DNA of 19,456 nt from Halieaceae bacterium (lineage in GTDB: Bacteria > Pseudomonadota > Gammaproteobacteria > Pseudomonadales > Halieaceae): assembly GCA_009886815.1 (NCBI GenBank), contig QXYP01000023.1:1-19456 (forward strand). The letters run 5' to 3'. The position numbers were made by a program, and so were the translations under genes. This document shows, piece after piece, positions 852-19,456 of this stretch. Each line of letters begins with the position of its first letter. The first letter of the stretch is position 1. A model generated the notes under the pieces. The model was not told where the DNA came from, made no database searches, and saw only the letters and a program-made list of their open reading frames with translations.

Positions 852-925
852 GGAGGGCTCCTGCTATTGGGGCCAGCGAACTGGCCCCAGTGACAACGAG
901 TGATAGCACCGGTAGAGGCAGCGGC

Positions 926-2386: not shown

Positions 2387-2414
2387 GGCGTTGCCCTCTT
2401 TTAAGAATGTGGCG

Positions 2415-2430
2415 CTGTTAAATTGTACAG
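2415..2430 (-). promoter_or_regulatory. Candidate promoter -10 and imperfect operator upstream of the aldehyde dehydrogenase
   Basis: On the minus strand TACAAT (2427-2422) matches five of six bases of the -10 consensus and lies about 35 nt before the aldehyde dehydrogenase ATG. No good -35 was found at the right distance. The box sits inside the imperfect inverted repeat CTGT-N8-ACAG (2415-2430), a plausible but weak binding site for the TetR protein encoded downstream. Confidence 0.25.
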
Positions 2431-2538
2431 GCCGTAGAGATTAAATGTCCCTCAGTCATTTGTAAAACCCTAGGCGATGACAAAGGTCAGCCATGGCCTA
2501 CTTGGGTAGACCATGACATTGTTCGCGGTGTCGGGCTT

Positions 2539-4359: not shown

Positions 4360-4462
4360 ATTCGGACTCAATTTGAAAAAAGAGAGAATACCACAGTGCT
4401 TTATTTGAAGGGCCCTAGAGTCAGCCATGCGCGAGATTGCTGAGTATTCGCAGTTGCTGGGG

Positions 4463-4486
4463 CGGCGCCTATGTCGGCGCCTATGT
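4463..4486. repeat. Perfect tandem duplication of a 12-bp unit
   Basis: The unit CGGCGCCTATGT occurs twice head to tail (4463-4474 and 4475-4486) in the intergenic region upstream of the DUF885 gene, about 105 nt before its chosen start. Each copy contains the palindrome GGCGCC. It could be a replication-slippage duplication or a paired protein-binding site. Confidence 0.85.
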
Positions 4487-4640
4487 ATATGCTGCACGAA
4501 TAGGCCGCGCCAAGGTGGCAGCTCATGAGAAGCCGGTGTGTCGTTGTAAATACGGGTCTAAAAGCTAAAAGTGAGCTCAGCCCTGCCGCAAGTAAAGGGC
4601 CGGGGCTGGTTGAGAGAAGCTCTGGACCACCGCGTTGGGT

Positions 4641-5585: not shown

Positions 5586-5626
5586 GATGAATCCTTGAAT
5601 TTTGTGCGGCTGATTGGCGTCGCGTA

Positions 5627-5653
5627 AGTATAAACGGGTTATCCCGTGGTCAG
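5627..5653 (-). promoter_or_regulatory. Candidate promoter with operator-like palindrome, upstream of pip
   Basis: On the minus strand TATACT (5632-5627) is a five-of-six match to the -10 box. A weak -35, CTGACC (5653-5648), lies 15 nt upstream. The spacer is almost entirely occupied by the perfect inverted repeat ACGGG-ATAA-CCCGT (5647-5634). A palindrome between the two promoter boxes is a typical repressor site. The 15-nt spacer is shorter than optimal, so the promoter call is tentative. Confidence 0.35.
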
Positions 5654-5836
5654 TTTAATCTGCACAAGTTTGTGCGTCGGCAACAGGCTAAAGTGCCACC
5701 TTCGCAATCGAGCCTTGCAGGTTGCATTGGTACCCGCGCAGGCTGTGCCACTAGCAAAGGTTTTTGCCTACAACAGTTGCGTTACTTTTGGCCTCGACGA
5801 TTGTTTGTATCGCTGGGTGCTTTCAAGGCTGCCGTT

Positions 5837-7738
5837 TTAACCTTTAGCCACTGCTGCTGTCTGATTGGGCAATTCACTAATGGCCCGGTAGGCTTCATCA
5901 ATGGCGACATGGGTATAGGCCGACGCCCCCGCATCGGAGTTGGCAATGGCAATAGCGCCAAAGGGCTGCCTAGCGATTTCATGGGGGGCCTCTCCCTCCG
6001 CCCAATCAGGATCCCACAAATCCATATACTCATAGGCGTAGCCGTGGGGCCAACGGTTGACGGTAATGGCCAATATGTCTTCATTAACGTCAAAGCCTTC
6101 GGGGCCTAACAGGTCATTGAGGACGGTGCGCACTTCCCGCTCAAAATCTTCAAAGGACAAATCGAGCAGCTTCTGCCGCGATGCACGCAACTGGCTCTTG
6201 AGATCAATGGCGTTGTCGGGGGGCGATACAGAACCCCAAAATACCAGTGATACTGGCCCAGAATCGTCCGCGTCGTGTTCGTAGCCGCCATTATTAATGC
6301 CCTTAAATAAGAACAAGCGTGCATGGAGGCGACCGGGGCAATCAATACCATCAACGCCCAGTTTGTCGAGGGCATTGGTATTGCGAATCAGTACGTTGGT
6401 GAGTATCAGCGGTATTTTCACCTGATACTTGAGCGCGTCTTTTTGCTGTTCAGATAGCGACGGGCACAGATGGGGAATCACGCTGTGGTAACAGGCAAGG
6501 ACGGCATGTTTTGTTGCGACTCTCTTGAGAAGCCCCCCCTCGGCATAAGTGACGCTTGCCCCCGTCTCGGTATTTTCTGCGTTGACGACGGTGGCATTGA
6601 GGCGCAGCCGCACCGGCTGCTCGGGTTCATCAAGGGCGCCGTAGTTAAATTTGGCGAGTGCCACGTTGTCCGGGGTAACGTTCGGTGCAACGTGGGGCAG
6701 CAGGCCCGCCACCATGAGGCGTACCAAGCTGGCATTGCCGTCGGGCCACAGCGCGGCGGGATAATCACGGCCTTCGTAAGACCAGTCTTTACCGAGTAAA
6801 TGCAGGCCGGGGTTTTCCTCCCAAAGCGCATCGTTGGCAGACAGTGCGCGCATCTCAATACCCCAGGAGCCGTGCACTTTTTTATCGAACAGCTGTACGG
6901 CGTCTTCGGTAAGGCCACCATACTGTCGTAAAAAGTCAGGATAGCTAATGCTAGACAGTAGCGCGTCGGTCTCAGATTCGCTGAGCTCCGACAGCAGGTT
7001 GTCGCGGCGGCCATAAAAGGCCTTGAGCGATTCCCGGCCGGCTTCAGAAATGGGGATTTGGTCAATCACCTCGGGCGTCAGCTGTTCGTTGAGATCGAGG
7101 TTGGACACGAGACGATTAACGCCATAAGTGTCTTCGTCAAACCACATGGCCGGGCTATTGGGGGCGTCATGACCGTAGGTAAAGTCCATATTTTTACGCA
7201 TGGCTTTTACATCAACACCAAACGCATCCATAAACCCTTTTACGGTGTCACTAAATTGCCACCACTCAAGGTTGTGGGTGCCTCCCAGTGACAGCACCAT
7301 GCTGCCGCCTTGGTGAAACTCATTGCGTTTGGCATGCCCGCCAAAGTCATCGTGGTTGTCTAGCAGTAAAATACGGGCATCTTTGCCAAAGCGCTCTTGA
7401 TAGTAGTGCGCGGCCGCAAGGCCCGAGATGCCAGCACCCACCACCACAAGGTCGAATTCCTCTTCGGTTTCTATGGGGTTATCAAAGCGTGCACCCTGTC
7501 TCGCCAGAGCATGGGCCACCTCATAGGCCCCGTTATGAGAGCCTCGCATCCCCGTTTTGGTCGGCGGGTAATAACCGTCAGTTGAAAGTGCTGAGGCTGT
7601 GTTTTCTGCCGCCGTTGTGGTGACACTAATAGCACCCGAGGTGACAGCGCCCAGCACTGCTAGGCTGCTGCCCTGAACGAAATCCCTGCGTGTAATGGCG
7701 CGATGCATGCCCAACTGCTTATCGGTCTTCCGTGTCAC
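5837..7738 (-). CDS. Tat-exported FAD-dependent oxidoreductase, spermidine dehydrogenase-like
   Basis: The product is a 633-aa flavoprotein starting at a GTG (7738-7736), supported by a GAGG site 8 nt upstream. The next internal ATG (residue 11) has no such site. The twin-arginine signal ITRRDFVQGSSLAVLGA (Arg17-Arg18) indicates folded export to the periplasm. The FAD-binding Rossmann motif is DLVVVGAGISGLAAA (GAGISG at 101-106), followed by LLLDNHDDFGGHAKRNEF. A C-terminal flavin-contacting stretch, FGAIAIANSDAGA, ends the fold. From memory this arrangement and length match the family of Pseudomonas SpdH, which cleaves spermidine to 1,3-diaminopropane and 4-aminobutanal. Many homologues are annotated only as FAD/NAD(P)-binding proteins, so the amine substrate is uncertain. 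The gene is 79 nt downstream of the small secreted protein gene. Confidence 0.85.
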   Translation of the reverse strand: MTRKTDKQLGMHRAITRRDFVQGSSLAVLGAVTSGAISVTTTAAENTASALSTDGYYPPTKTGMRGSHNGAYEVAHALARQGARFDNPIETEEEFDLVVVGAGISGLAAAHYYQERFGKDARILLLDNHDDFGGHAKRNEFHQGGSMVLSLGGTHNLEWWQFSDTVKGFMDAFGVDVKAMRKNMDFTYGHDAPNSPAMWFDEDTYGVNRLVSNLDLNEQLTPEVIDQIPISEAGRESLKAFYGRRDNLLSELSESETDALLSSISYPDFLRQYGGLTEDAVQLFDKKVHGSWGIEMRALSANDALWEENPGLHLLGKDWSYEGRDYPAALWPDGNASLVRLMVAGLLPHVAPNVTPDNVALAKFNYGALDEPEQPVRLRLNATVVNAENTETGASVTYAEGGLLKRVATKHAVLACYHSVIPHLCPSLSEQQKDALKYQVKIPLILTNVLIRNTNALDKLGVDGIDCPGRLHARLFLFKGINNGGYEHDADDSGPVSLVFWGSVSPPDNAIDLKSQLRASRQKLLDLSFEDFEREVRTVLNDLLGPEGFDVNEDILAITVNRWPHGYAYEYMDLWDPDWAEGEAPHEIARQPFGAIAIANSDAGASAYTHVAIDEAYRAISELPNQTAAVAKG

Positions 7739-7817
7739 TGGTCGATCCTCGTTTTAATCAGGTTTTAAAAAGTAGTCACTTCGATCGTAAAGGTCTCGCT
7801 GTTTTTCTGCTGCTAAA

Positions 7818-8270
7818 TTAGGAGCAGGGCGTGTCGGCGTAATGGGTGATTTTCCATTCGCCGTTGATCGCATCCACCAAATACCAGCCGCAGCTTGTTT
7901 CGGTAACATCACCTGCGTAGTAGTCGGTCCAAACCGTCATCACGCCAGAAGTTGTGGCGTTGATCGTTGTTGCGGTCATGTCGGTTAGCTCGGCTCGAAC
8001 CCAGCCTTCTTCCCGCCAGCTGTCCATGGGGGCTGTAAGCCATTCCCGGCTGGGCGTGGTGCTGAGCGAGCCGTCCGAGCCATGAGTCACGATCTCGCTA
8101 TGGTAGTGCGTCAAAATCGCTTCAATATCTTGATAGGGGGTGTCTGCCCATAAGGGACCGTAAGAATTCTTAAACCAAGCTCCCGCGGTCTGGTCGCTAT
8201 TAGCGCTGGCAATTAGCGGGGAGACCAGTACTACGCCGGTCAGTAATAAGGTGTGAAAGATATTTCTCAT
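7818..8270 (-). CDS. Small secreted NTF2/SnoaL-like protein
   Basis: The 150-aa product has an N-terminal signal peptide (about residues 1-23, hydrophobic core TLLLTGVVLVSPLIA, probable cleavage after ASA). The mature part has the cone-fold pattern of NTF2-like/SnoaL/DUF4440 proteins: a helical start with a DIEAILTHYHSEIVTHG segment, and beta strands ending GWYLVDAINGEWKITHY. The only two mature cysteines (CGWYL and the C-terminal PCS) could form a disulfide in the periplasm. The fold often serves as a small-ligand binding or isomerase pocket, but no catalytic residues can be assigned. It sits between the 3-HIBADH-family gene and the Tat flavoprotein on the same strand, with gaps of 122 and 79 nt. 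It could therefore assist the flavoprotein in the periplasm, which is speculative. Confidence 0.82.
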   Translation of the reverse strand: MRNIFHTLLLTGVVLVSPLIASANSDQTAGAWFKNSYGPLWADTPYQDIEAILTHYHSEIVTHGSDGSLSTTPSREWLTAPMDSWREEGWVRAELTDMTATTINATTSGVMTVWTDYYAGDVTETSCGWYLVDAINGEWKITHYADTPCS

Positions 8271-8392
8271 GGGGTCATAGATCCTAAGTCAGAGATAGAG
8301 GTGCCGTATCTGTTGGGCCTACCTTAACAAACTCGCTGATTTGCGTACTCGCGCTTATAGGGTAGGAATAGCCCATAGGTGGCGAGGTGCCT

Positions 8393-9367
8393 TCACTCAT
8401 AGGCGCTATTGCCCTTGCCCGGCGGTACCACTTCATAACCCGGCTCCTCGGGTTCGTCATCAGTCATTTCCGGGGGAAAGCCCTCTGCAAGCACTTGCGT
8501 CTCACAGGCTTCCTCCAAACGTCGAATAATATTGGGCGACCACTCCCGTTCACCAAACCTGGCCTGTCCGTCTTCAAAGATCTTGATCAGCTGGGGAGAG
8601 ATTTCCAGAGGTACGCCGGCCTGGTCGGCCATGCTTTGAAATAGGCCGATGTCTTTTAATACCAGGTCCATGGTGAAGTTAATGTCACGACTGCCATTTA
8701 AAATAACCTGACTTTCGGTTTCATGGACAAAGGAATTGCCCGACGAAATGCGAATGGCTTCGTAAACGGTGGCTAGGTCGAGGTCAGACTGTTGGGCCGT
8801 CACCAGCGCCTCACAAAGGGTGACCAAATTGGCCGTTGCCAGGTAGTTGGTCATCACCTTTATTTTCGATGCGCTGCCCAAGGACCCACTGTGTAAAACC
8901 CGCCGCCCCAGCACGGTTAATAACGGCAAGATTTTTTCGAACACCGGCCGTTCACAGCCCGCCAAAATGGCGATGTTGCCGGTGGCGGCACGATGACAGC
9001 CACCAGAAACCGGGCAGTCAGCGGGGGCTGCACCAGTCTGCGCGACCTTGTGCCCCAAGCGCTGCACCTCACGGTAGTCGGTGGTGCTCATTTCTATCCA
9101 TATTTTCCCGGGTTTTAGGCCGGCAATCACCCCGTCTTTGGCCTCCATAACCTCCGCGCAGGCCTTTGGGCTCGGCAAACAGGTAATGATCACGTCAGCG
9201 GCTTCTGCCATTTCAGCAGGGGAGTTGGCCCATTGCGCGCCGCCGTCCAGAAACGGTTGTGCCAGCGCCTGATCGAGATCGCGAACGATTAAGGGAATGT
9301 CATTGCGGAGCAGGCTACCCGCCAGCTTTGATCCCACATTACCCAATCCAATAAATCCTACTCGCAT
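8393..9367 (-). CDS. 3-hydroxyisobutyrate dehydrogenase family NAD(P)-dependent oxidoreductase
   Basis: The 324-aa cytoplasmic beta-hydroxyacid dehydrogenase has an N-terminal Rossmann motif GFIGLGNVGSKLAG (GLGNVG 7-12). The substrate-binding DCPVSGGCHRAATGN lies at about 118-131 (Ser121-Gly122-Gly123), and the catalytic lysine is probably Lys170 in KIKVMTN. Members oxidise 3-hydroxyisobutyrate, tartronate semialdehyde, hydroxybutyrate or related acids. The exact substrate cannot be read. It is somewhat longer than the usual 290-300 aa, because an acidic Pro/Glu-rich tail (TDDEPEEPGYEVVPPG) follows the second domain. It is divergently transcribed from the alcohol dehydrogenase/enolase-superfamily operon across 94 nt, so it may share their regulation and pathway. 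Confidence 0.92.
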   Translation of the reverse strand: MRVGFIGLGNVGSKLAGSLLRNDIPLIVRDLDQALAQPFLDGGAQWANSPAEMAEAADVIITCLPSPKACAEVMEAKDGVIAGLKPGKIWIEMSTTDYREVQRLGHKVAQTGAAPADCPVSGGCHRAATGNIAILAGCERPVFEKILPLLTVLGRRVLHSGSLGSASKIKVMTNYLATANLVTLCEALVTAQQSDLDLATVYEAIRISSGNSFVHETESQVILNGSRDINFTMDLVLKDIGLFQSMADQAGVPLEISPQLIKIFEDGQARFGEREWSPNIIRRLEEACETQVLAEGFPPEMTDDEPEEPGYEVVPPGKGNSAYE

Positions 9368-9461
9368 GGCGGTGTTATCCTTCTAGCCAATAAAAAAATT
9401 GATAACTTCAGTACGTTAAAGTGCGTAAATTACTGGATTCAACGCCTAAGGAAAACGAAAA

Positions 9462-10541
9462 ATGAAAGCGGCAGTTTGTCGGGCTTTTGGGCGCCCTTTA
9501 ACCATTGAAGATGTCGATATTGCAGAGCCCGGCGCGGGTGAGGTCAAGGTTCGGTTAACCGCTTGCGCCATTTGTCACAGCGATGTCATTTTAGTGGATG
9601 GCGGTTGGGGTGGTGATTTACCCGCAGTGTACGGTCACGAGGCCGCAGGTATCGTGGCATCAATCGGCCCAGGCGTCACAGGTTTGAAGCCGGGGGATCC
9701 TGTGGTGGTAACACTTATTCGCTCTTGCGGCAGTTGTCACTATTGTAATCAGTCAATTGAAACCCAGTGCGACGGTGTTTTTCCTTTAGACCAGCAAAGC
9801 CCATTATCGGATAGCAGCGGCCAAGTTGTGTCCCAAGGGCTTAACAGCGGCGCTTTTGCTGAGCAGGTGGTTGTAGAGCAAAGTCAGGTTTGTGTCATTC
9901 CCGAGGATATTCCATTGGACGTTGCATCAATTTTAGCCTGCGGTGTACTGACGGGTTTTGGTGCGGTGGTTAATACGGCGCAGGTCAAGGCGGGTAGTAC
10001 GGTAGCTGTCATAGGCTGCGGCGGTGTCGGGATTAACAGCATTCAGGGTGCGGTTCATGCCGGTGCCTCACAGGTTATTGCGCTCGATTTGCTCGATGAA
10101 AAGTTGGAGCTTGCCCAGCAGTTCGGAGCGACACACGCTGTTAATAGCGCTGAAAAAGACTGTATCGAGCAGGTTATTGCACTGACAGGTGGTCGCGGCG
10201 TTGACTATGTATTTGTCACTGTGGGTGCGAAGGCGGCCATTGAGCTGTCAGTCAATTTGCTGGGGAAGTCTGGCACTGCTGTTATTGTTGGAATGCCAGC
10301 ATCGGGTGTTATGGCACAGTATGACCCCGGCGAGTTGGCAGCTCGAGGTCAGTCTGTTCTGGGATCTAAGATGGGGTCAGGGTCGGTGAAGCGCGACATT
10401 CCTAAGTTAGCGGCTTTGTACCAGAGCGGTGAGCTCAAGCTGGATCAGATGATCAGTGGGCGGTACGCATTAGAGGAAATTAATGAAGCCATTGCTTCGG
10501 TCAAACGGGGCGAGGCATTACGTAACGTGGTCATTTTTTAA
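9462..10541 (+). CDS. Zinc-dependent alcohol dehydrogenase (MDR superfamily)
   Basis: The 359-aa enzyme has both zinc sites intact. Catalytic ligands are Cys38, His59 (GHEAAG) and Cys160 (ACGVLTG). Structural ligands are Cys89, Cys92, Cys95 and Cys103. The NAD-binding motif GCGGVG is at 185-190, and ALDLLDEK provides the acidic residue expected for NAD preference. It resembles the class III/aryl-alcohol branch of zinc alcohol dehydrogenases, so the substrate may be an alcohol, an aldehyde or a sugar/hydroxy-acid derivative. The ATG follows AAGGA with a 9-nt spacer. The TAA stop overlaps the ATG of the next gene (TAATG at 10539-10543), so the two are translationally coupled and probably act in one pathway. 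The promoter must lie in the 94-nt divergent gap, but no convincing boxes were found there. Confidence 0.94.
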   Translation: MKAAVCRAFGRPLTIEDVDIAEPGAGEVKVRLTACAICHSDVILVDGGWGGDLPAVYGHEAAGIVASIGPGVTGLKPGDPVVVTLIRSCGSCHYCNQSIETQCDGVFPLDQQSPLSDSSGQVVSQGLNSGAFAEQVVVEQSQVCVIPEDIPLDVASILACGVLTGFGAVVNTAQVKAGSTVAVIGCGGVGINSIQGAVHAGASQVIALDLLDEKLELAQQFGATHAVNSAEKDCIEQVIALTGGRGVDYVFVTVGAKAAIELSVNLLGKSGTAVIVGMPASGVMAQYDPGELAARGQSVLGSKMGSGSVKRDIPKLAALYQSGELKLDQMISGRYALEEINEAIASVKRGEALRNVVIF

Positions 10542-11749
10542 TGGTGATTAAAGAGTTCGAAACTTTCGTCGTTGGCAACCCACCCCCACGCTTTGGTGGG
10601 CGTTATTTTATTTTTGTGAAGCTGGTAACCGATACGGGCATTGTCGGTTATGGCGAAGTCTACTGCGCCACTTTTAGTGCCGAAACGGTCGAAGTGATGC
10701 TCAGAGATACCGCAGAGCGGTTTGTCGTTGGTCACGACCCTTTTCATATTGAGAGGCTTTGGCGTCGAATCTACGGTGCGGGCTACAACCTGCGTCCTGA
10801 CGTCTCGTTGGTCAGCGTTCTGTCTGCCTTGGAAATGGCTTGCTGGGACATTGTTGGCAAGGCCTGTGATAAACCGGTTTATGAGCTATTGGGTGGAAAG
10901 GTTCATGAGCGCCTGCGCAGCTACACCTATATTTACCCTTCTTCGGGTGACGTTTATCCCGAACCCGGCGACACGGATAATGTTTATGTTAACCCCGATA
11001 GGGCGGCACAGCGTGCGCTTGATTACGTGAAGCAAGGTTTTACTGCGGTTAAATTTGATCCTGCCGGTCCGTACACGATTTTTGACGGAGGCATGCCTAC
11101 GGGGCAGGAACTAGACCGCTCTGAAAAGTTTACTCGCCGTATTCGGGAGGCGGTGGGCCCCGATGTCGATTTGTTGTTTGGCACTCACGGACAATTTTCT
11201 CCGGCCGGGGCTATTCGGCTCGCTAAGCGACTCGAGCCCTACGACCCCCTTTGGTTCGAAGAGCCCACGCCTCCTGAAAATACCGCGGCCATGGCTCGTG
11301 TGGCTCGAGCAACCTCTATTCCGGTGGCTACGGGTGAGCGCCTTTGCACCAAGTACGAATTTGCCAGGGTCTTAGAAGACGGTGCCGCTTCGATTTTGCA
11401 GCTTAACCTCGGGCGTGTTGGCGGCCTGTTGGAGGCCAAAAAAATAGCGGCATTAGCCGAGGTGCACTACGCCCAGCTTGCGCCTCATATGTACTGTGGC
11501 CCGATTGTGGGGGCGGCTAACATTCAGTTGGCCACCTGTTCGCCGAATTTCCTAATACTCGAAGGTATTGAAACCTGGGGCGGCTTTCAGGCGGAGTTAC
11601 TCAATACGCCTGTTATGTGGGAGGCGGGATACGTGATTCCCTCTACCGAGCCAGGACTCGGTGTTTCACTCAATGAGGCGGTTGCCCGTGCTAACCCATG
11701 GCGGGGTGATGAGCTCCACTTAGAAATGGGCGTGGAGCCTGTTCGATAA
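10541..11749 (+). CDS. Enolase superfamily protein, mandelate racemase/muconate lactonizing type (sugar-acid dehydratase-like)
   Basis: The 402-aa protein has the enolase-superfamily N-terminal cap (about residues 1-125, with the ALEMACWDIVGKA and PVYELLGGK motifs) and a C-terminal barrel. The closest recognisable group is D-galactonate/mannonate dehydratase-like MR proteins, which take a proton from the carbon next to a carboxylate and eliminate water. Recognisable barrel residues are Lys171, His216, Glu241 in WFEEP, Glu266 in TGERL and His316 in LAPHMYCGP. At the end of the third strand the sequence is LLFGTHGQFS (211-220). Gly214 sits where a metal-binding Asp is normally found, and that could alter or abolish classical metal binding. 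The start overlaps the alcohol dehydrogenase stop by one base. Substrate is unknown. A sugar acid or hydroxy acid shared with the dehydrogenases on either side is the simplest guess. Confidence 0.92.
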   Translation: MVIKEFETFVVGNPPPRFGGRYFIFVKLVTDTGIVGYGEVYCATFSAETVEVMLRDTAERFVVGHDPFHIERLWRRIYGAGYNLRPDVSLVSVLSALEMACWDIVGKACDKPVYELLGGKVHERLRSYTYIYPSSGDVYPEPGDTDNVYVNPDRAAQRALDYVKQGFTAVKFDPAGPYTIFDGGMPTGQELDRSEKFTRRIREAVGPDVDLLFGTHGQFSPAGAIRLAKRLEPYDPLWFEEPTPPENTAAMARVARATSIPVATGERLCTKYEFARVLEDGAASILQLNLGRVGGLLEAKKIAALAEVHYAQLAPHMYCGPIVGAANIQLATCSPNFLILEGIETWGGFQAELLNTPVMWEAGYVIPSTEPGLGVSLNEAVARANPWRGDELHLEMGVEPVR

Positions 11750-11993
11750 CCCAAGCGGCACCTCAGATAGACGCCTTTATGAGGCTCTAGCCCTTGGAGC
11801 CGCTGCTCAAAATAGCGAATGACGCCAATCCTCGCCTCGGTAACTGAGCCTTCTGTGAGCGGGTCGGATTCGTAAAGAGGGGTCGCGGCCGGTTGTTAGT
11901 GACAGCGAAGGGCAAAAGCGCGATATTGCTCTCGTTACCGTTACCGGGAACATGAGCTACTGAGTTTTAATCCCCTAAGAGGTGCCGACCCAA
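11750..11993. other. Intergenic region between the enolase-superfamily gene and agmatinase gene
   Basis: The 244-nt gap holds no credible reading frame. It contains a weak hairpin, GGCTC (11783-11787) with GAGCC (11797-11801) and a 9-nt loop with no T run, and a short direct repeat CGTTACCGTTACCGG near 11935-11946. The agmatinase promoter presumably lies here, but no convincing -35/-10 pair could be picked by eye. Confidence 0.4.
11977..11982 (+). promoter_or_regulatory. Ribosome binding site deciding the agmatinase start
   Basis: AAGAGG lies 11 nt before the ATG at 11994. The alternative GTG at 11982 shares its first G with this site and would have no ribosome site of its own, so the ATG is preferred. 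Confidence 0.55.
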
Positions 11994-12938
11994 ATGTCGT
12001 TAGAAACAGATTTCGCCATGACTCGTGAGAGCCTAAAAGGAGTTCAAGACGAGTCGACCTACGGTGGCATTACCAGTTTTATGCGCCGTCGCTACTCCCG
12101 TGATCTGTCCGGGGTCGACGTTGCGGTTCTCGGTGTGCCCTTTGACCTTGCGACCACCAACCGTGCTGGAACTCGGTTAGGGCCAAGGGGCATTCGTACC
12201 GCCTCTGCGAGCTTGTCTTGGGAGAATCAGGTTCAGGGGTGGGATTTTTCGCCTCTGGAAGAACTCGCGATTGTTGATTACGGCGACTGCCCCTTCGATG
12301 CCGGGACCCCGGACAAAGTACCCGAGCAAATTTATCAGCAGGCCCGGGATATTTTGGCGACTGACACGGCCTTGTTGTCACTCGGTGGCGACCACTTTGT
12401 GTCGTACCCCCTGTTGCGGGCCCACGCGGAAAAATATGGCCCTCTGGCGCTGATTCACTTCGACGCCCACTCCGATACCTGGGAAGACGACGGCCCACGC
12501 ATTGACCACGGCACCATGTTTTATCATGCCGCCAAAGAGGGGTTAGTGGTGCCTGAGCATTCGGCCCAAATAGGCCTGCGTACTTACAACGAATCGACCA
12601 TGGGTTTTAATATTTTTGATGGCCCCACGGTGCATGAGCAAGGTGCGGTTGCTATTGCGCAGCAGGTAAGAGGTATCGTGGGTGACAGACCCTGCTACCT
12701 CACTTTCGATATCGATTGTCTCGACCCGAGTTTCGCTCCGGGTACGGGAACACCGGTTGTGGGTGGGCTCTCTACCCACCAAGCTCTGCAGCTTTTACAA
12801 AACTTGCGGGGTGTCAATTTGGTGGGCATGGATGTGGTTGAGGTGGCGCCACCTTACGATGTCAGCGAGATTACGGCTTTGGCAGGGGCCACCATGGCAC
12901 TGCAGCAGTTGTGTTTGTGGGCTTATTGCCGGCGCTAA
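11994..12938 (+). CDS. speB: Agmatinase (ureohydrolase family)
   Basis: The 314-aa binuclear manganese enzyme would hydrolyse agmatine to putrescine and urea. All six metal ligands are visible: His134 in GGDHF, Asp157/His159/Asp161 in HFDAHSDTW, and Asp239/Asp241 in TFDIDCLDPSFAPG. The stretch DHGTMFYHAAKEGLVVPEHS strongly resembles E. coli SpeB, which favours agmatinase over arginase. Guanidinobutyrase and guanidinopropionase of pseudomonads are close relatives of the same length and remain possible. A GTG at 11982 would add four residues but collides with the ribosome site. No arginine decarboxylase gene is in the window. The gene stands alone, 244 nt after the enolase-superfamily gene and convergent with the outer-membrane protein gene. 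Confidence 0.92.
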   Translation: MSLETDFAMTRESLKGVQDESTYGGITSFMRRRYSRDLSGVDVAVLGVPFDLATTNRAGTRLGPRGIRTASASLSWENQVQGWDFSPLEELAIVDYGDCPFDAGTPDKVPEQIYQQARDILATDTALLSLGGDHFVSYPLLRAHAEKYGPLALIHFDAHSDTWEDDGPRIDHGTMFYHAAKEGLVVPEHSAQIGLRTYNESTMGFNIFDGPTVHEQGAVAIAQQVRGIVGDRPCYLTFDIDCLDPSFAPGTGTPVVGGLSTHQALQLLQNLRGVNLVGMDVVEVAPPYDVSEITALAGATMALQQLCLWAYCRR

Positions 12939-13067
12939 AGCCGCTCGCCTGACGGGGCTGTAGCGCGGCTGCTGTGAAGGTTGTGGTGACTAAAAAGCAA
13001 CGCAGTGGCTAATACGGCAGTGACCATTTTTGCACTGACTGTTAAACCTTTTGTTCCCCAAAACTGT

Positions 13068-13082
13068 CGTTGAGGATCAACG
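13068..13082 (-). terminator. Weak hairpin between convergent genes
   Basis: CGTTGA-GGA-TCAACG is a perfect 6-bp stem with a 3-nt loop between the convergent agmatinase and outer-membrane protein genes. On the minus strand it is followed after four bases by TTTT. Low stem GC and the short T run make it a weak terminator candidate for the outer-membrane protein gene. Confidence 0.3.
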
Positions 13083-13093
13083 TTGCCCATTAG

Positions 13094-13119
13094 CGCCTCA
13101 AAAATTACGCCTCAAAAAT
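13094..13119. repeat. 14-bp-spaced tandem duplication at the stop codon of the outer-membrane protein gene
   Basis: CGCCTCAAAAAT occurs at 13094-13105 and again at 13108-13119, separated by TA. The right copy includes the stop codon (13112-13114) of the outer-membrane protein gene. The left copy is an exact downstream echo of that gene end, consistent with slippage duplication of a 14-bp unit. Confidence 0.85.
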
Positions 13120-13876
13120 CGAATCTCACGCCCACAGCCGGGCCGTACTGTTTCATATCGAATTTGAAACGATCGGCGCCTTCGCCGTCTTCGTAGTCAA
13201 AATCGAGGTAACGATAGCCCAATGTCAGGCTTGACCAGTGATTAAATCGATAGGCGAAACTGCCACTGACTACCATGACCATATCCGAGCCCACACCGAA
13301 GCCGCCCACGAGGGCCGAACCGGTGAAGTCCCAATGCGCACCAAGGGGTGTTTCGTACGCCATGCCAACAACGGGATCTACCCAGTCGTCGCCAGCGCTC
13401 TGTTGGCGGGTTTCAGACGGCCCGGTAAGAGAAACGCCGGTCGTTAAGTCGTTAAAAAGAGCGCCGCCCAAAAGCCGAAATTCTTTGTTAAGGCGGTAGG
13501 ATGCCGTGGTGATGACCGTTGTTTGTTCGACATTGACCTCGCCACTTAAAGCCCCGCGGTCACCTTCGCCGTCCATTTTAAGGTCCATACTGACGATATC
13601 GAGCTGCACACCCCAGCGCTCGCCTTCACCCCGGTACAGGCCTAAAAATGCGCCGTCGAGGGCATCAAAAACGTCCCCAGCATCCATATCTACGGCGGTG
13701 TCGAAGGGGCCAATACCGCTGGTGCCGTCGAGGGTCGGCGCCAAAATATAAATTAACGCCTGATTGGACCAGGCCTTATTGTCGGCCGCCGCGACACTGA
13801 GCGCGCTGCAAAGCAGCAGCATGGCTGCAAAAGGTTTAGCAATGTTGGTGAGGGGTGGCAATCCTTGTGACCTCAT
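13112..13876 (-). CDS. Outer-membrane beta-barrel protein of unknown function
   Basis: The 254-aa product has a signal peptide (hydrophobic AAMLLLCSALSVA, likely cleavage after AAA near residue 31). The mature part alternates polar and hydrophobic residues with Gly- and aromatic-rich strands, for example WGVQLDIVSMDLKM, ASYRLNKEFRLLGGALF, WDFTGSALVGGFGVG and SSLTLGYRYLDFDYEDG. It ends in VGVRFDF. A terminal Phe with alternating hydrophobics is the classical assembly signal for outer-membrane barrels. About eight to ten strands fit the length, so it is a small barrel and not a TonB receptor or large porin. The start is backed by a near-perfect AAGGAGG at 6-nt spacing, which suggests strong expression. 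Function and ligand are not recognisable. The Asp/Gly-rich loops (DMDAGDVFDALDGA) could bind cations. Confidence 0.88.
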   Translation of the reverse strand: MRSQGLPPLTNIAKPFAAMLLLCSALSVAAADNKAWSNQALIYILAPTLDGTSGIGPFDTAVDMDAGDVFDALDGAFLGLYRGEGERWGVQLDIVSMDLKMDGEGDRGALSGEVNVEQTTVITTASYRLNKEFRLLGGALFNDLTTGVSLTGPSETRQQSAGDDWVDPVVGMAYETPLGAHWDFTGSALVGGFGVGSDMVMVVSGSFAYRFNHWSSLTLGYRYLDFDYEDGEGADRFKFDMKQYGPAVGVRFDF

Positions 13877-14053
13877 AACATTCCTCCTTGGGAATAAACA
13901 TGGGTTCGTTGTGTGGGTATGGGCTCGTTAACATGATGGCTGCATGGCAAAACATTAAAGCGCTCTGCTGGCAGCGGCTTTTTGGCAGACTCGATGCTTA
14001 ATAAAACACCATGCCTCAATAAGAGACGCCGCCTAACTCAGCTCCCTAAGCCC

Positions 14054-14080
14054 CGGGCAGGCTACTGCCCGTACATTTTT
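14054..14080 (+). terminator. Hairpin followed by T run in the 294-nt gap between minus-strand genes
   Basis: CGGGCAG-GCTA-CTGCCCG is a perfect 7-bp GC-rich stem with a 4-nt loop (14054-14071), followed after four bases by TTTTT (14076-14080). It has intrinsic-terminator form on the plus strand, although both flanking genes are on the minus strand. For minus-strand transcripts it would be a stem without a U tract, lying about 100 nt past the copper monooxygenase stop. The rest of the 13877-14170 gap holds no credible gene. Confidence 0.45.
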
Positions 14081-14170
14081 GTGCCTATGATACCCACTCA
14101 AACACGCTGAGATTGTCTGAGGCTTTATCAAATCCCGTCAGTGCCAGAGCTTCCGTTTAACCTGTGATCG

Positions 14171-15967
14171 TTAGCGTCCCGCTTGCCCACCGTCTATCGT
14201 CGCTTTGGGTCTCGCTGCCAAGCTCTCCGGCGTATCCCCCAAATAGCGGTAGGTGGTAAAGCCAAAAAACATTTCGTGCATGGTTTGTAAGCCAAACCGC
14301 ACGGGCATGTTGGGGTTGGGGTTGTAGGGGTTGCGGTCAGAGTTATCCATAGCACCCTGGGCAATGAGGCGAGTTCCTGCGGGCAGGAGCACGGGCTCTT
14401 CCAACTGATAATTAAACTGCCAGTTAAAGTCGTACTTGGGCACCGACAACAACACTTCCGAGCTGCCGTCGGGGTATTCGGCAATATATTTCATATGCTT
14501 GCCGCGGTAGTGCATGTGGGGCATGAGGCTGTAGAGCAGGGCATCGCGTTCAATTTCTTGCACGCCCTCAAGGGGATACTCTTTGGCATTGGGTGGAATC
14601 AGGAATCGACGCTGGCCAGCAGAGCCTCCAGACATCACGTACTTGGGGGGCTTGTCATGCAGGTAAATACCGATCTTGGTCTCATCGGTGGTTGCTTTGC
14701 CCGTGGTGGTGTAATGCATTTGTAACAACAGGCTAGAGCCCGCGCGTATTAGGGCGCCTGAGTCGTCACGCCAAATATCGGGTTGGCGCCCCGGGGCAAA
14801 GCCGCCAATCGAATCGCCGAGTGCGCCATCGTCGTTGCCCGCCCCAGCGGTACGATCAGCTGGGCTCGAAAGATAGGTGATGACATGGTGTAACACTTTG
14901 CGGTCCCCGGGCACGTACTCCACGGCGCGCAGCCAAATGTCTTCGTCCAAATTGAGGGGAACCGGGACATAACGGTAATCAATGACGCCGGTGGCCGGTA
15001 TTTCCTGAGCAGGAACCGTCAGCACAATATCGGGTTCACCCATTGAAAACGTTGCGTCGCTAAATGCTAGGGCCTTCAAAGGATCGGGCTGATCATCGCC
15101 CGGTGCCCCGGCATCAATCCAGTGCACCAGCGTTTGCAGCTCCTCAGTGGATAGTCCGGCCGCTTCCTGAACGGGGCGCCCTACATGGGGGTCAAGTTGG
15201 CCGGGAGGCATGCGTCGGGTCAGCAGCACTTCTTTCATCATGCGCGACCACCCACGGACCATGGCGTGCTCGGTCATGGCCCAGGGACCAATGCCGCCTA
15301 CGTGATGGCATTTCACGCAGTGTTGCTCGAGTATGGGGGCGATATCGGCCGAATAACTGGGCGGTGCCTTTGCATGAGCGTCTTTGGCAGCGAAGGTAAT
15401 CAGGCAGCCGGGAGCTTCGGGAACGTTTTCGGGCAGGGGGCTTCCCGCTAGGTGGGCATCAAGGGCGTCGCGCAAGTAATGATTGGCCGCTTCAGCTTTT
15501 TGGGTTTCATAGTGCAGGCGGTCATCAATAGGGCCGCGATACACCACTTTCTGAGTCTGTGGGTTAATGATAAAAACTTCAGAGGTGCGATCAACGCCCA
15601 ACGACTCAGCGATCAGTTGGGTTTCATCAATGAGTATGGGGAAGTCGAAACTAAAATCGGTGGCTTCGGCCACAATGCTCGCGCGATTGTCCTGGGGCTG
15701 GGGGTTGAGCATAAAAAACTGCACCCCCTGATCGGCATACTGGTCACGAATCGCGCTTAGCTGAGGCACGCTGTTACGAACAATGGGGCAGCCGTTGCCC
15801 TGCACAAAAATAACAATGGCCTTTTGGTCGCCATACCAGCTCAGCTTGTGGTGTTTTCCGGTCTGGTCCAACAGCGCAAAGTCACCAATGCGCTGCGACT
15901 CGGCAGCGTGAACTAACTGCGCCATCAAAATACCCATTGCCATCGCAATGCTAAAGACTACTTTCAT
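14171..15967 (-). CDS. Exported fusion: redoxin + cytochrome c + PHM-like type II copper monooxygenase
   Basis: The start is the ATG at 15967-15965, with GGAGG 5 nt upstream and a signal peptide right after it (residues 1-21, cleavage near VHA-AES). A longer frame to 16030 is unlikely. The 598-aa product has three parts. Residues about 25-175 are a redoxin/AhpC-TSA fold with a single Cys60 in GNGCPIVRNSVPQL. Residues about 200-290 are a cytochrome c segment with heme motif CVKCH (217-221) and probable axial Met253 in RRMPPGQ. Residues about 310-580 resemble peptidylglycine/dopamine beta-monooxygenase: His360-His361 (LHHVITY), His418 (LLQMHY), His484 and His486 (MPHMHYRG) and Met566 (MHEMFFGF). 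These match the two copper sites in order. It is probably periplasmic and oxidises an unknown C-H substrate. The divergent neighbour is an RND/MMPL transporter. Confidence 0.9.
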   Translation of the reverse strand: MKVVFSIAMAMGILMAQLVHAAESQRIGDFALLDQTGKHHKLSWYGDQKAIVIFVQGNGCPIVRNSVPQLSAIRDQYADQGVQFFMLNPQPQDNRASIVAEATDFSFDFPILIDETQLIAESLGVDRTSEVFIINPQTQKVVYRGPIDDRLHYETQKAEAANHYLRDALDAHLAGSPLPENVPEAPGCLITFAAKDAHAKAPPSYSADIAPILEQHCVKCHHVGGIGPWAMTEHAMVRGWSRMMKEVLLTRRMPPGQLDPHVGRPVQEAAGLSTEELQTLVHWIDAGAPGDDQPDPLKALAFSDATFSMGEPDIVLTVPAQEIPATGVIDYRYVPVPLNLDEDIWLRAVEYVPGDRKVLHHVITYLSSPADRTAGAGNDDGALGDSIGGFAPGRQPDIWRDDSGALIRAGSSLLLQMHYTTTGKATTDETKIGIYLHDKPPKYVMSGGSAGQRRFLIPPNAKEYPLEGVQEIERDALLYSLMPHMHYRGKHMKYIAEYPDGSSEVLLSVPKYDFNWQFNYQLEEPVLLPAGTRLIAQGAMDNSDRNPYNPNPNMPVRFGLQTMHEMFFGFTTYRYLGDTPESLAARPKATIDGGQAGR

Positions 15968-15972
15968 ACCTG

Positions 15973-15977
15973 CCTCC
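15973..15977 (-). promoter_or_regulatory. Ribosome binding site fixing the start of the copper monooxygenase fusion
   Basis: GGAGG on the minus strand lies 5 nt upstream of the ATG at 15967. It supports this start over the frame extension to 16030, which would place 21 Cys-rich residues ahead of the signal peptide. Confidence 0.75.
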
Positions 15978-16054
15978 TGCAGATTTTCTGCGCCTTTACA
16001 GCAGCACAGTGCCCAATATTTTACCGACATTAGGCTCAGTTTCCATGTGCTTTA

Positions 16055-16063
16055 TGCTATAAA
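16055..16063 (+). promoter_or_regulatory. Extended -10 promoter element in the divergent gap upstream of the MMPL transporter
   Basis: TGCTATAAA (16055-16063) fits the extended -10 form TGnTATAAT with one mismatch, about 33 nt before the transporter ATG. No good -35 hexamer is at the expected distance, which extended -10 promoters tolerate. The 128-nt gap must also hold the minus-strand promoter of the copper monooxygenase, which I could not place. Confidence 0.4.
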
Positions 16064-16095
16064 ACCGCCGTTAAGAATGGAGCAATACTCGGAAT

Positions 16096-18393
16096 ATGGA
16101 CATAGCAGGTGTTTTGGTAGAGCGGCGGTCGTTGCTCGCGGTTCTTACAATGGTGGTGAGCCTTGCGGTTGGCTGGGGCGTAACGAAAACCAGTATAGAC
16201 CCCCGTTCAGATGCCATTTTGCCGGAAGACGACCCTTATGCTGCGCAGGTCGAGGAGGTGGAGGCCGACTTCCCTCGAAGTCGATCGGCACTGTTTACCT
16301 TCATTGCTCCCGGCGGCAACATCTTTAACCGCGAGGCCCTTACCGCCATGGAGGCGCTGCACGAGCGATTTGGTGAGGTCCAATCGGCTGTGGCGGTGGG
16401 TTCTATGGTGAACTACCGGCTTAACGCCGTCGATGAGACGATTTATGGCCGTCAGTACTTACTGCCACCCGTAGACAGCTTGAGCGATGAAGATTTGGCT
16501 GAGGTGCGGGAGATTGCCCTTGCCGACGAAGACTTGGTCAAGACCCAACTCGCCCGTGATGGCGACATGGCATTAGCGGTTTTCAAATACCGGCCTAGCG
16601 GCGAAGGCTTAACCGAACGCCTTGAAATTGCCCGCTCGGTGGTGGCACTGCGAGATCGGCTACGAGAGGACTACCCCGGTGTTGAAATTTACGCTTTGGG
16701 CAATGACCTATTCGAACTCGACAGTTACAACGCGCAAATCAAAGACAGGAATAATCTGGCGCCGTTGGTGGCACTGGCAACCACCTTACTGCTATGGCTC
16801 TGTCTCAACTCTTTGGTCTATGCCCTGTGTACTTTAGTGGTTTCTTTTCTGGGCATTTTGCTCACCATAGGCGCTGTCGGCTGGTCGGGGTTTGCGTTTA
16901 ACCAAATTTCCAATATGGGACCTTTGGTGGTGTTGACGATTGCCATGGCCCACGGCATTCATATTATTTCTATATATCTGCAGGGCTTGCACGAGGGGCT
17001 CTCAAAGGTCGATGCGCTTGAGCAAAGCCTACGACTTAATTTACAGCCGGTAACCTTAGCAACCGTCACCACGGCCATGGGCTTTCTTAGCCTCAACTAT
17101 TGCTCCTCAGCGGGTATTTATGGCTTTGGTAACGCCGTCGCCATGGGTGTTTTTTGGGCCTACTTGGTCACCCTCACATTGCTACCCGCCTTAATCATGT
17201 GGGTGCCTACCCGCCGTATTCCTCGACCCTTAGGTGTGCGCGGCATGATCCGACGGGCGACAGAGCTGGTCTTACGTCGGGGTAATGCACTCTTTTGGGG
17301 GTTGTCGGTCATTATCGTCGTGTGCCTTGCCATGCTCCCCCTCAACAAAGTTGATTTCGATCGTTTTGAATTTATTGATAAGGACTCCGACTTTCACCTT
17401 GTCATCACGGCACTGGCCCAGAAGATTGGCAACGATCAGTCGCTGGTTTATGCCATTGATAGCGGGCAGTACTACGGCATTGCCGACCCTGCATTTATGT
17501 TGGAAGTTGAGCGCTTTGCGGACTGGCTCGAAGAGCAGCCCGATGTGAGTGTGGTGAACAGCTACGTGGGCATGCTGAAAACCCTCAACGAAGCCGAGAA
17601 CGACAACGATGCGGCTTGGCATGTACTGCCCGATGACAATCTGCAGGTTATCGACTACTTGGTGGGTTATCAGCTAGTCCAAGAGATAGAGCCCCATTTG
17701 GAGCCTATATTTGATCCTGAGTACACGACTGTGCGCGTTGTTGTGGGCACGTCTAACCTAACCAACGTTCAGCTGCTTGAGCTCAATCAGCGCATCGAAG
17801 CCTGGCATGCTGACAACATCAACCCTGACTACCGGGTTATGCATGGCAGCAACACCATCTTGTATGCACGGCTTAACGACACCATTTCACGGCAGTTGCT
17901 CGAGGGTTTTACGGTCAGCTTTTTGTTGATCACGTTAACTATGCTGGTGGGCTTACGCAGTGTGCGCTACGGGTTAATTAGTATTGCCCCCAACCTATTG
18001 CCGCCCGCGGTGGTGTTTGGAGTTTGGGGCCTGTTTGTGGGTCAGCTTAGTCCCTACATTTTAATGCTGTTCTCCATCAGTATTGGTTTGGTCGTCGACG
18101 ACTCGGTACATGTTCTGAGCAAATACATGGCTGCACGTAAGGCAGGAGAACAACCAGAGGAGGCGGTGCGTTATTCCCTCGATAAAGCCGGATCTGCAAT
18201 TACCATTACGACGGCTGCGCTGGCAATGGGTACGTTCATTTTGGTGTTTTCAAATACCTACTATTATCAAAATGTAGCGCTCATGCTCACGCCGATTATT
18301 GTTGTGGCATTGCTATTAGACTTGCTGTTTTTGCCGCCGTTGCTGGTCAAGCTGGATAGGTTTTTTGACCGCCGGACAAAAATCTCAGCTTAG
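16096..18393 (+). CDS. RND superfamily transporter, MMPL type
   Basis: The 765-aa inner-membrane protein has the duplicated RND plan. TM1 lies at about residues 11-29, a large periplasmic loop follows to about 218, and the TM2-TM6 bundle (about 222-370) includes SNMGPLVVLTIAMAHGIHI. TM7 is at about 399-415, a second periplasmic loop runs to about 600, and a last TM bundle ends near 750. The second half carries the RND motif GLVVDDSVHVLSKY with acidic pair Asp668-Asp669, typical of proton-driven members. The equivalent site of the first half is AHGIHI, with no acid. The length fits single-gene MMPL/HpnN-like lipid or hydrophobic-compound exporters better than the ~1000-aa AcrB pumps, and no membrane-fusion partner gene is nearby. 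The start has only a weak, distant GGAG. Being divergent from the copper monooxygenase, it could export that enzyme's substrate or product. Confidence 0.92.
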   Translation: MDIAGVLVERRSLLAVLTMVVSLAVGWGVTKTSIDPRSDAILPEDDPYAAQVEEVEADFPRSRSALFTFIAPGGNIFNREALTAMEALHERFGEVQSAVAVGSMVNYRLNAVDETIYGRQYLLPPVDSLSDEDLAEVREIALADEDLVKTQLARDGDMALAVFKYRPSGEGLTERLEIARSVVALRDRLREDYPGVEIYALGNDLFELDSYNAQIKDRNNLAPLVALATTLLLWLCLNSLVYALCTLVVSFLGILLTIGAVGWSGFAFNQISNMGPLVVLTIAMAHGIHIISIYLQGLHEGLSKVDALEQSLRLNLQPVTLATVTTAMGFLSLNYCSSAGIYGFGNAVAMGVFWAYLVTLTLLPALIMWVPTRRIPRPLGVRGMIRRATELVLRRGNALFWGLSVIIVVCLAMLPLNKVDFDRFEFIDKDSDFHLVITALAQKIGNDQSLVYAIDSGQYYGIADPAFMLEVERFADWLEEQPDVSVVNSYVGMLKTLNEAENDNDAAWHVLPDDNLQVIDYLVGYQLVQEIEPHLEPIFDPEYTTVRVVVGTSNLTNVQLLELNQRIEAWHADNINPDYRVMHGSNTILYARLNDTISRQLLEGFTVSFLLITLTMLVGLRSVRYGLISIAPNLLPPAVVFGVWGLFVGQLSPYILMLFSISIGLVVDDSVHVLSKYMAARKAGEQPEEAVRYSLDKAGSAITITTAALAMGTFILVFSNTYYYQNVALMLTPIIVVALLLDLLFLPPLLVKLDRFFDRRTKISA

Positions 18394-18445
18394 GGCGTCG
18401 TTATGGATTGTGTCGGTTTGTTTCTAAAAAAATCTTAGGACTGTG

Positions 18446-18474
18446 TTGACGGGTGTATTTTCCAATCATGAAAT
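18446..18474 (+). promoter_or_regulatory. Candidate promoter of the glutathione S-transferase-family gene
   Basis: TTGACG (18446-18451, five of six to the -35 consensus) is followed after exactly 17 nt by TGAAAT (18469-18474, four of six to the -10). It lies about 65 nt upstream of the gene start in the 145-nt gap after the transporter gene. The gene therefore probably has its own promoter. Confidence 0.45.
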
Positions 18475-18519
18475 AACCTAAGGTGTTATTGAGGGGCTGT
18501 AGCACATTTGAGTCAACGG

Positions 18520-18531
18520 GCGCCTAGGCGC
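18520..18531. promoter_or_regulatory. Perfect 12-bp palindrome just before the glutathione S-transferase-family start
   Basis: GCGCCTAGGCGC reads the same on both strands and abuts the AGGGAG ribosome site. It may be a protein-binding site or a translation-affecting structure, or it may be chance in GC-rich DNA. Confidence 0.35.
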
Positions 18532-18538
18532 AGGGAGT

Positions 18539-19456
18539 ATGACCGTGAGCCAACAATATCCCATACCTGACCAGTACAACCTCATGGGGCGGCCTGAATC
18601 GGGCTACACCATGAAGGTCTTAGCCGCGTTACGGTACAAGCAGGTTCCCCACCAATGGCTGGACCGCTTCGCGCATAACAAACTGTTTCAACGACATGCC
18701 AAGGTGCAGCTGATACCCCTGTTATTTTTGCCCGACGGCACAGCGATGCAAGATTCGACCCCGATCTTGGAACTTTTGGAAGAACGTCACCCGGAGCCTG
18801 GGATTCACCCTGAAGATCCCGCGCTACACTTTTTATCAGATCTCCTAGAGGAATATGCCGACGAGTGGGGCAATAAGCTTATGTTCCATTATCGCTGGGG
18901 CTACCCTGCCGATCAGAAACGGCGGTCCCGCACTCTGGCTGAGGGCAGCCTTGGCGGGCTCACGGCCCCCTGGTTAGGTAAACTTATGAAGCCGTTGATG
19001 GCGCCCCTACTGGTGCGGCGAATGGTGCCTCGAATGGCCTTTGCCGGCGCTACCGATAATAACCGTCCTATTTTGGTGTCCTCCTTCGACCGGCTGGTAG
19101 AGCTTTTGGAGCTTCACTTGCAATCGCGTCCCTACGTCTTCGGAGGGCGGCCCGCCCTGGCAGATTTTGGTCTGTGGGGTCAGCTGCATCAGGCTTTTAC
19201 CGACCCAAGCTGTCACGATATTTTAGTTAATAAAGGGCCGTCGGTCGTGGCGTGGATCGAACGTATGGAGTCTCCCGAGGGCTTGGGTGACTTCGATACG
19301 CTGGACAATCTGGCGCCAACGCTGCGGCCTATTTTTACCGAGGAGGTGGGTCCACGCTTTTTGGCCTGGACCGCGGCCAACGCCCGGGCCTGGGCGGCGG
19401 GGGAAAAACAAACCGGGCTTACTATGGCGGGGCAGCGCTATTATCAGAAGACGTTT
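18539..19456 (+). CDS. Glutathione S-transferase family protein, 3' end beyond the window
   Basis: The frame is open from an ATG at 18539 to the window edge, giving 306 codons with no stop. An N-terminal thioredoxin-like domain (about residues 12-85) has a SGYTMKVLAALRYKQVPH helix start, the cis-Pro stretch VQLIPLLFLPDG, and QDSTPILELLEE, where Asp72-Ser73 would contact the gamma-glutamyl group of glutathione. A long helical C-terminal domain follows, including RPYVFGGRPALADFGLWGQL, a typical GST capping motif. No signal peptide is present, so it is cytoplasmic. Likely roles are conjugation or reduction of electrophiles, or glutathione-dependent catabolism. The ATG is only 1 nt after AGGAG-like AGGGAG (18532-18537). 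A GTG at 18545 has 7-nt spacing and may be the true start, costing two residues. It is longer than the classical ~210-aa GSTs. Confidence 0.9.
   Translation, partial: MTVSQQYPIPDQYNLMGRPESGYTMKVLAALRYKQVPHQWLDRFAHNKLFQRHAKVQLIPLLFLPDGTAMQDSTPILELLEERHPEPGIHPEDPALHFLSDLLEEYADEWGNKLMFHYRWGYPADQKRRSRTLAEGSLGGLTAPWLGKLMKPLMAPLLVRRMVPRMAFAGATDNNRPILVSSFDRLVELLELHLQSRPYVFGGRPALADFGLWGQLHQAFTDPSCHDILVNKGPSVVAWIERMESPEGLGDFDTLDNLAPTLRPIFTEEVGPRFLAWTAANARAWAAGEKQTGLTMAGQRYYQKTF

Follow-up and report, generated by a model that had tools for sequence, protein, structure and literature searches.

The window analyzed here is a stretch of 19,456 nucleotides from a Halieaceae bacterium (positions 1 to 19,456 of the forward strand of contig QXYP01000023.1, assembly GCA_009886815.1). 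It carries a gene for a fusion protein in which a redoxin domain, a cytochrome c domain and a two-domain copper module of the kind found in the animal monooxygenases PHM and DBM follow one another, next to a divergent gene for an MMPL-type transporter (Table 1).

Table 1. Features of the fusion gene and its neighbor. Fractions give the proteins, out of 121, and the alignment rows, out of 74, that keep the residue.
Feature	Residues	Position	Strand	Basis or conservation
Redoxin / cytochrome c / PHM-type copper monooxygenase fusion gene	598 aa	14171..15967, stop codon included	minus	open frame, families, model
AGGAGG, ribosome-binding-like stretch		15973..15978	minus	read from sequence
Likely signal peptide (hydrophobic helix 2-18, then HAA, cleaved before ES)	1-22	15902..15967	minus	sequence and helix 2-18 in model; putative cleavage point
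Redoxin (AhpC/TSA) domain	about 25-192	15392..15895	minus	Pfam match at 25-154
Cys60 codon	60	15788..15790	minus	Cys in 99/121, other residue in 22
Cys188 codon	188	15404..15406	minus	Cys in 97/121; partner of Cys60 by co-occurrence
Cytochrome c domain (boundaries approximate)	about 203-290	15098..15361	minus	CXXCH and Met; model helices 205-216, 234-239, 241-249, 274-285; weak Pfam match
CVKCH heme c site	217-221	15305..15319	minus	C217, C220, H221: 121/121, 74/74
Met253, probable distal heme ligand, RMPP motif	253	15209..15211	minus	121/121, 74/74
PHM/DBM-type two-domain copper module	310-583	14219..15040	minus	
His360-His361, CuH ligands (PHM 107/108; DBH 262/263)	360-361	14885..14890	minus	121/121, 74/74
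His418, third CuH ligand (PHM 172; DBH 333)	418	14714..14716	minus	121/121, 74/74
His484-x-His486, CuM ligands (DBH 412/414)	484-486	14510..14518	minus	H484: 120/121, 73/74; H486: 121/121, 74/74
Met566, CuM ligand (PHM 314; DBH 487)	566	14270..14272	minus	119/121, 73/74
Divergent neighbor, MMPL/HAE3-type RND transporter, 128 bp from fusion gene	765 aa	16096..18393	plus	PF03176, 97 bits

The fusion gene reads without an internal stop on the minus strand. An earlier sequence-only reading of the window had not named the strand, but the coordinates and the eight residues that it gave (C60, M253, H360, H361, H418, H484, H486 and M566) all agree with the translation. The ATG at 15967 is preferred over a longer open reading frame start at 16030 because the AGGAGG stretch (15978..15973) precedes it. 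The open frame, this ribosome-binding-like stretch and the large number of database matches (2691 of the 7996 candidates scored, at E<=0.001) rule out a chance assembly or frame error. The predicted structure has a pLDDT of 87 and a pTM of 0.83, and the protein is likely to be exported, as residues 1-22 resemble a signal peptide in sequence and model alike. A scan of positions 13850-16200 gave three promoter-like sites against a mean of 1.7 in shuffled sequence, which is near expectation, and seven terminator-like sites where the mean was 2.6; neither count enters the conclusions.

Conservation was followed in two sets. The first consists of the query and its best 120 database matches, which cover 93-100% of its length and of which one is identical to it. 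The second is an alignment of 74 rows, query included, that reaches down to 30% identity and combines 37 of the 121 proteins with 37 gene copies from loci; similarity to the fusion guided the choice of its rows. Eight heme and copper ligands (C217, C220, H221, M253, H360, H361, H418 and H486) are invariant in both, and H484 and M566 are nearly so. The related proteins go by the names “peroxiredoxin”, “redoxin domain-containing protein”, “redoxin family protein” and “hypothetical protein”.

A scan of genome contigs yielded 69 loci, assigned to Gammaproteobacteria and Proteobacteria by title, many of them marine, with further loci added later. The window and those relatives that share roughly 52% or more identity with it form a monophyletic clade A (support 0.91). 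Clade B lies at about 40% identity with a support of only 0.51, and clade C at about 31%, where cytochrome c and PHM align without a redoxin. A further group consists of L037 and proteins like it, which share 39-47% identity with that of the window. The genome of the window has one copy of the fusion. Counting that genome each time, the fusion is patchy in the family (28 of 140 genomes) and occurs in 3 of 398 genomes sampled from the phylum, and the copper module is found at E<=1e-10 in 23 of 293 genomes of the order. Spread by plasmids was rejected: among 72,556 plasmid records there are 18 matches, in no case is 80% of the query covered, and the ten listed concern the redoxin part only. A longer protein of different architecture (836 aa; L095 of genome G126, 6608-9118, plus strand) shares only 28% identity with the window protein across 383 columns; its match in the genome search takes in the part with cytochrome c and copper module (residues 204-546).

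A divergent relative of PHM and DBM

Animal enzymes of the PHM/DBM type finish peptide hormones and make noradrenaline. In these enzymes, O2 is activated at one copper site, CuM, after electrons have come singly through the other, CuH. The protein of the window has the two-domain jelly-roll core of this class, with three histidines for CuH followed by two histidines and a methionine for CuM in the same order. The structural comparison that the sequence-only reading had proposed as a check has been run with the predicted model, and the first Foldseek match is DBH, with PHM among the next. The module with both its copper sites is thus upheld by alignment and model together. The register against PHM and DBH (Table 1) comes from aligned ranges and spacing rather than from measured distances, and His484 and His486 presumably correspond to PHM 242 and 244.

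The curated families give a mixed answer to the search for both Cu2_monooxygenase domains that had also been proposed. The C-terminal family, Cu2_monoox_C (PF03712), just passes (23.2 bits against a cut-off of 23, residues 452-571) and is found in 66 of the 74 rows at E<=0.01. Several results weigh against a close tie to the animal enzymes. The N-terminal PHM family, PF01082, is neither listed for the window protein at E<=1 nor one of the seven families that the 74 rows show at E<=0.01. Run against the PDB sequences, a copper-module profile gave no match at E<=1, so the tie rests on predicted structure and ligand pattern. There is no cysteine in residues 221-598, and the core is therefore not braced by disulfides of the animal type; the only four cysteines of the protein (60, 188, 217 and 220) all lie outside the copper module. 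Since the fold match spans the N-domain even though PF01082 is not listed, the protein is best seen as a divergent relative and not as a textbook member; PF01082 and the disulfides being both absent, it is a divergent bacterial variant that is neither PHM nor DBM. That it has the fold and the sites of a copper oxygenase is nevertheless hardly in doubt.

The distance from the animal enzymes is also apparent in their other domains. Rat PHM (1phm, 1sdw, 5wja) is about 15% identical to the window protein, which differs from it in having no PF01082 match, no cysteines in the module and a fused heme domain. Human DBH (4zel) is 16% identical; it begins with a DOMON domain and depends on ascorbate (PMC4846438), whereas a redoxin and a c-type heme domain come first in the window protein, whose copper module is free of cysteines. 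The same source describes PHM, DBH, TBH and MOXD1 as a small class of eukaryotic, multidomain enzymes and the DOMON domain of the ascorbate-dependent DBH as of a type able to bind heme or sugar.

Residue 564 (codon 14276-14278), two before the CuM methionine, is a histidine throughout clade A (121/121 proteins; 47/47 clade-A rows). Its equivalent is aspartate in 12 of 17 clade B and 9 of 9 clade C rows, and glutamate in all 13 PHMs that stand alone as separate genes. Going by the sequences, this may reflect a clade-specific tuning of the CuM site.

Heme, redoxin and the probable supply of electrons

Animal PHM and DBM take their electrons from ascorbate, which most bacteria do not make. The fusion protein would instead bring its own donor. 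The heme c site with Met253 as likely distal ligand, which the sequence-only reading had picked out, is kept in every protein and row of both sets, so that the protein has the CXXCH motif and distal ligand of a c-type cytochrome. Its weak match to the cytochrome c profile counts against this assignment (E 0.096, 13.5 bits against a cut-off of 27); among the 74 rows, curated cytochrome c profiles are found at E<=0.01 in 14 (PF13442) and 8 (PF00034).

In the proposed mechanism, the periplasmic heme c would take single electrons from a respiratory or periplasmic pool and pass them one at a time to CuH, and CuH to CuM, replacing the two one-electron donations that animals draw from ascorbate. CuM would bind O2 and hydroxylate a C-H bond of the substrate. 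The protein is probably such an exported hydroxylase of the PHM/DBM kind with a built-in electron supply, and we are fairly confident that the cytochrome is the electron donor to the copper module.

It could also be that the cytochrome is needed for folding, or that electrons run the opposite way. In the latter case, the protein would be a copper dehydrogenase or oxidase that oxidizes a periplasmic substrate and sends the electrons through heme c to the respiratory chain. Many periplasmic dehydrogenases carry a cytochrome c domain as a fusion, and two relatives (L089 and L090, 42-43% identity) lie among genes for an acyl-CoA dehydrogenase, a short-chain dehydrogenase and an AMP-binding enzyme, families that were confirmed for L089. 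However, a core with separate CuH and CuM is described for hydroxylases that use O2 (PMC4846438), and such a reversal appears most improbable.

An argument for the cytochrome as donor comes from loci where the parts are not fused. In four genomes (G707, G724, G689 and G571 of family f123; L130-L133), one gene for a redoxin-cytochrome c protein (287-313 aa) is found among three to four stand-alone PHM genes (318-358 aa). The six copper ligands are kept in 13/13 of the PHM genes, and His40, Cys60, Cys188, CXXCH and the methionine in 4/4 of the redoxin-cytochrome genes. Parts that are fused in the window and co-encoded here probably work together, and a single cytochrome gene for several PHM genes speaks for a module of electron supply, as expected of a shared donor. 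At the same time, the core evidently also occurs with no heme fused to it, as in the stand-alone genes, which counts against the proposed mechanism. The eight f123 genomes with matches have 8-9 PHM matches each, with only eight candidate stretches scored per genome. The L130 cluster continues with a flavin oxidoreductase (Oxidored_FMN, PF00724) and a BCCT transporter (PF02028), and genes that look similar by eye are found in the other three; one guess for the substrate of these arrays is a quaternary-ammonium-type compound.

The redoxin domain belongs to the Redoxin/AhpC-TSA superfamily by its thioredoxin fold and by two passing profiles at residues 25-154 (Redoxin, 53.3 bits with a cut-off of 26.6; AhpC-TSA, 52.9 bits with a cut-off of 26). 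The “single Cys60” of the sequence-only reading is indeed alone at the redoxin site, but Cys188 is its partner by co-occurrence, and neither is kept universally. Of the 65 redoxin-bearing rows, which share kinship and are not 65 independent events, 37 have both cysteines, 28 have neither and none has only one, the losses being seen in clades A and B. This pattern suggests, at the level of sequence, a disulfide or a peroxidatic/resolving pair. Thiol chemistry is dispensable for a function common to the family, because both cysteines are missing in those 28 rows. All ten alignment rows from MMPL-linked loci lack the pair, while the window protein and 22 others among the 37 database rows retain it, so the cysteines are not tied to the MMPL partner either. 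The uncharacterized redoxin-like thiol-disulfide proteins 3u5r, 2ywi and 2cvb resemble the redoxin domain; the window protein adds the cytochrome c and copper modules and, unlike them, belongs to a family in which the pair is dispensable.

The classical peroxidatic motif of peroxiredoxins is PxxxTxxC. It was not found around Cys60 (VQGNGCPIVRN), nor was a CxxxC or CxxC of the SCO or thioredoxin type, the next cysteine being 188. With these motifs absent and both cysteines missing together in 28 of 65 rows, the redoxin was rejected as a functioning peroxiredoxin, a copper chaperone like SCO or a general thiol donor for the family as a whole. The AhpC/TSA fold of the first domain could still point to a peroxide-driven enzyme, in which H2O2 would serve CuM as co-substrate in a peroxygenase reaction, while the redoxin and heme domains would control local peroxide or keep the copper reduced; other mononuclear copper oxygenases can use peroxide. 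Without the peroxidatic motif, and with both copper sites kept, including the electron-transferring CuH that a pure peroxygenase would not need, this is very improbable.

ResA-like proteins act in cytochrome assembly, and ResA-like thioredoxin folds match the loosely conserved redoxin. The enzyme might thus be a true copper monooxygenase whose redoxin and cytochrome are modules of maturation or structure (copper loading, thiol repair or sensing), with electrons coming from a small, independent reductant, for instance quinol, thiol or environmental ascorbate. The 13 stand-alone PHM genes to four redoxin-cytochrome genes in the split loci fit such a scheme, since not every PHM has its own heme. 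However, an assembly factor need not remain fused to its client in all 74 rows, though these were picked for their similarity to the fusion, and a redoxin site with no CxxC or CxxxC, and no cysteine pair in 28 of 65 rows, does not suit copper or thiol handling as a general role. We consider this scheme improbable.

The sequence-only reading had assigned electron supply, or help with copper or heme, to the two leading domains. The part concerning the cytochrome is supported by its constancy (74/74) and the split loci, while a general thiol role of the redoxin is not supported, given the missing cysteines and clade C, which aligns without the redoxin. In the hydroxylase with built-in electron supply, the redoxin with its Cys60-Cys188 pair would be an accessory, optional in its thiol form, for redox tuning, docking or repair.

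A precedent for the principle is found in the lytic polysaccharide monooxygenases (LPMOs), which have a mononuclear copper site and whose donors are dehydrogenases outside the oxygenase that carry a heme domain. There, too, a copper monooxygenase receives its electrons from a redox protein, but the folds differ. The driving of LPMOs by a donor enzyme is described in PMC5960967. A search of the open-access literature, with subscription papers outside its scope, found, among the papers listed, none on bacterial PHM-type or redoxin-cytochrome-PHM proteins by title or start of abstract.

Transporter and lyase-like neighbors

The MMPL gene is adjacent to the fusion gene and divergent from it at 38/38 evaluable places in clade A; all of these have 353 or more bases of sequence upstream, and some are near-duplicates. 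Left out were L001 (a second copy of the window), L017, L036, L051 and L055, which have at most 84 bases upstream; L039, cut at its start, gave no row in the count. The cultured relative HTCC2080 (L003) has a copy 93% identical to that of the window, beside the same MMPL neighbor. Two loci added later (L135 and L136) also have the pairing, and in nine clade-A genomes checked, several of which overlap with the counted loci, the best match to the MMPL protein of the window is the gene adjoining the fusion. Because the other flanks vary between lineages, it is the pair itself that is conserved. The transporter has similarity to TIGR00921 and HpnN, in both cases below the cut-off.

In the same comparison of loci, no orthologue of this MMPL gene is adjacent at 47% identity and below. 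A candidate pairing outside clade A at L094, with a pump gene 79 bases beyond the PHM gene and tail to tail with it, was rejected, as the pump is of AcrB type (PF00873, 593.6 bits) and not an orthologue. MMPL-type genes of 21-23% identity lie about 2.3-2.6 kb away in L142 and L143 (family confirmed for L142), and one of 35% identity lies about 140 bases from a PHM match in G601, tail to tail, the match reading through one TGA.

MMPL is quite likely a functional partner of the fusion protein. A partner this constant suggests a hydrophobic substrate handled at the inner membrane, and the transporter probably moves the substrate or product across it; that the substrate is lipid-like in particular can be put forward only tentatively. 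The notion of a “self-contained” hydroxylase in the sequence-only reading is probably wrong, as the gene is coupled to that of the transporter and the heme itself needs a reductant.

Other genes were observed in the window. Downstream of the fusion, 13112-13876 (minus strand) encodes a small outer-membrane beta-barrel-like protein with weak family matches, homologues of which adjoin the fusion gene in five further loci (L003, L004, L006, L008 and L009). At 5837-7738 (minus strand) is a gene for an exported-looking protein with an FAD/NAD(P)-binding Rossmann domain and, by eye, a twin-arginine-like start (RRDFVQG); a homologue is present in the same locus of HTCC2080 (L003).

In a sister clade (L040, L041, L043-L048, L050, L052, L134 and L144), the PHM fusions have different neighbors, namely PAL-like NHL propellers and a HupE/UreJ-type membrane protein. 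We take the hallmarks of PAL to be a six-bladed propeller, a zinc-binding histidine triad and a catalytic tyrosine and arginine. The first Foldseek match of the sister-clade propeller is PAL (3fvz, E 2.1e-16), and equivalents of Y654, R706 and H786 are present. This recalls the bifunctional animal PAM, which unites PHM and PAL, although the two are separate genes in the sister clade. A search with one sister-clade protein and a 38-row profile found no PAL-like gene in the genome of the window (G000, 86% complete), and none was found in eight other clade-A genomes; a PHM/PAL pairing is therefore not claimed for the window. The 38-row profile matched in 4/4 f123 genomes.

Of the 16 clade-C loci, seven have a NosR-like cluster no more than four genes away from the PHM gene, and an eighth has it further off. 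The one NosR-like member scanned has FMN-binding and 4Fe-4S domains, and these proteins are a possible electron route into the periplasm. The redoxin-less cytochrome c-PHM proteins of L056-L071 have, near some of them, a NosR-like protein and a 330-aa family (c6), of which the one member scanned has no Pfam match; c6 genes are found next to PHM genes in L140 and L141 as well.

A broader picture, and a rather unlikely one, is that marine gammaproteobacteria practice the peptide-amidation chemistry of animals in a heme-wired form. PHM-type hydroxylases with a fused or co-encoded cytochrome c would work independently of ascorbate on a glycine- or N-alkyl-bearing periplasmic lipid or peptide, together with PAL-type lyases in one clade and a lipid-type MMPL transporter in that of the window.

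If true, a large bacterial family with a PHM/DBM core and a built-in heme donor would be a natural single-chain electron-transfer system, in which the heme could set off the transfer across 11 Å or more between CuH and CuM and its course could be tracked by optical means. Hydroxylation, and for one clade perhaps the two-step PHM/PAL reaction, would then have a place in marine bacteria, and a family with about 2,700 scored entries in the database, now named “peroxiredoxin”, “redoxin domain-containing protein” and the like, would gain a meaning.
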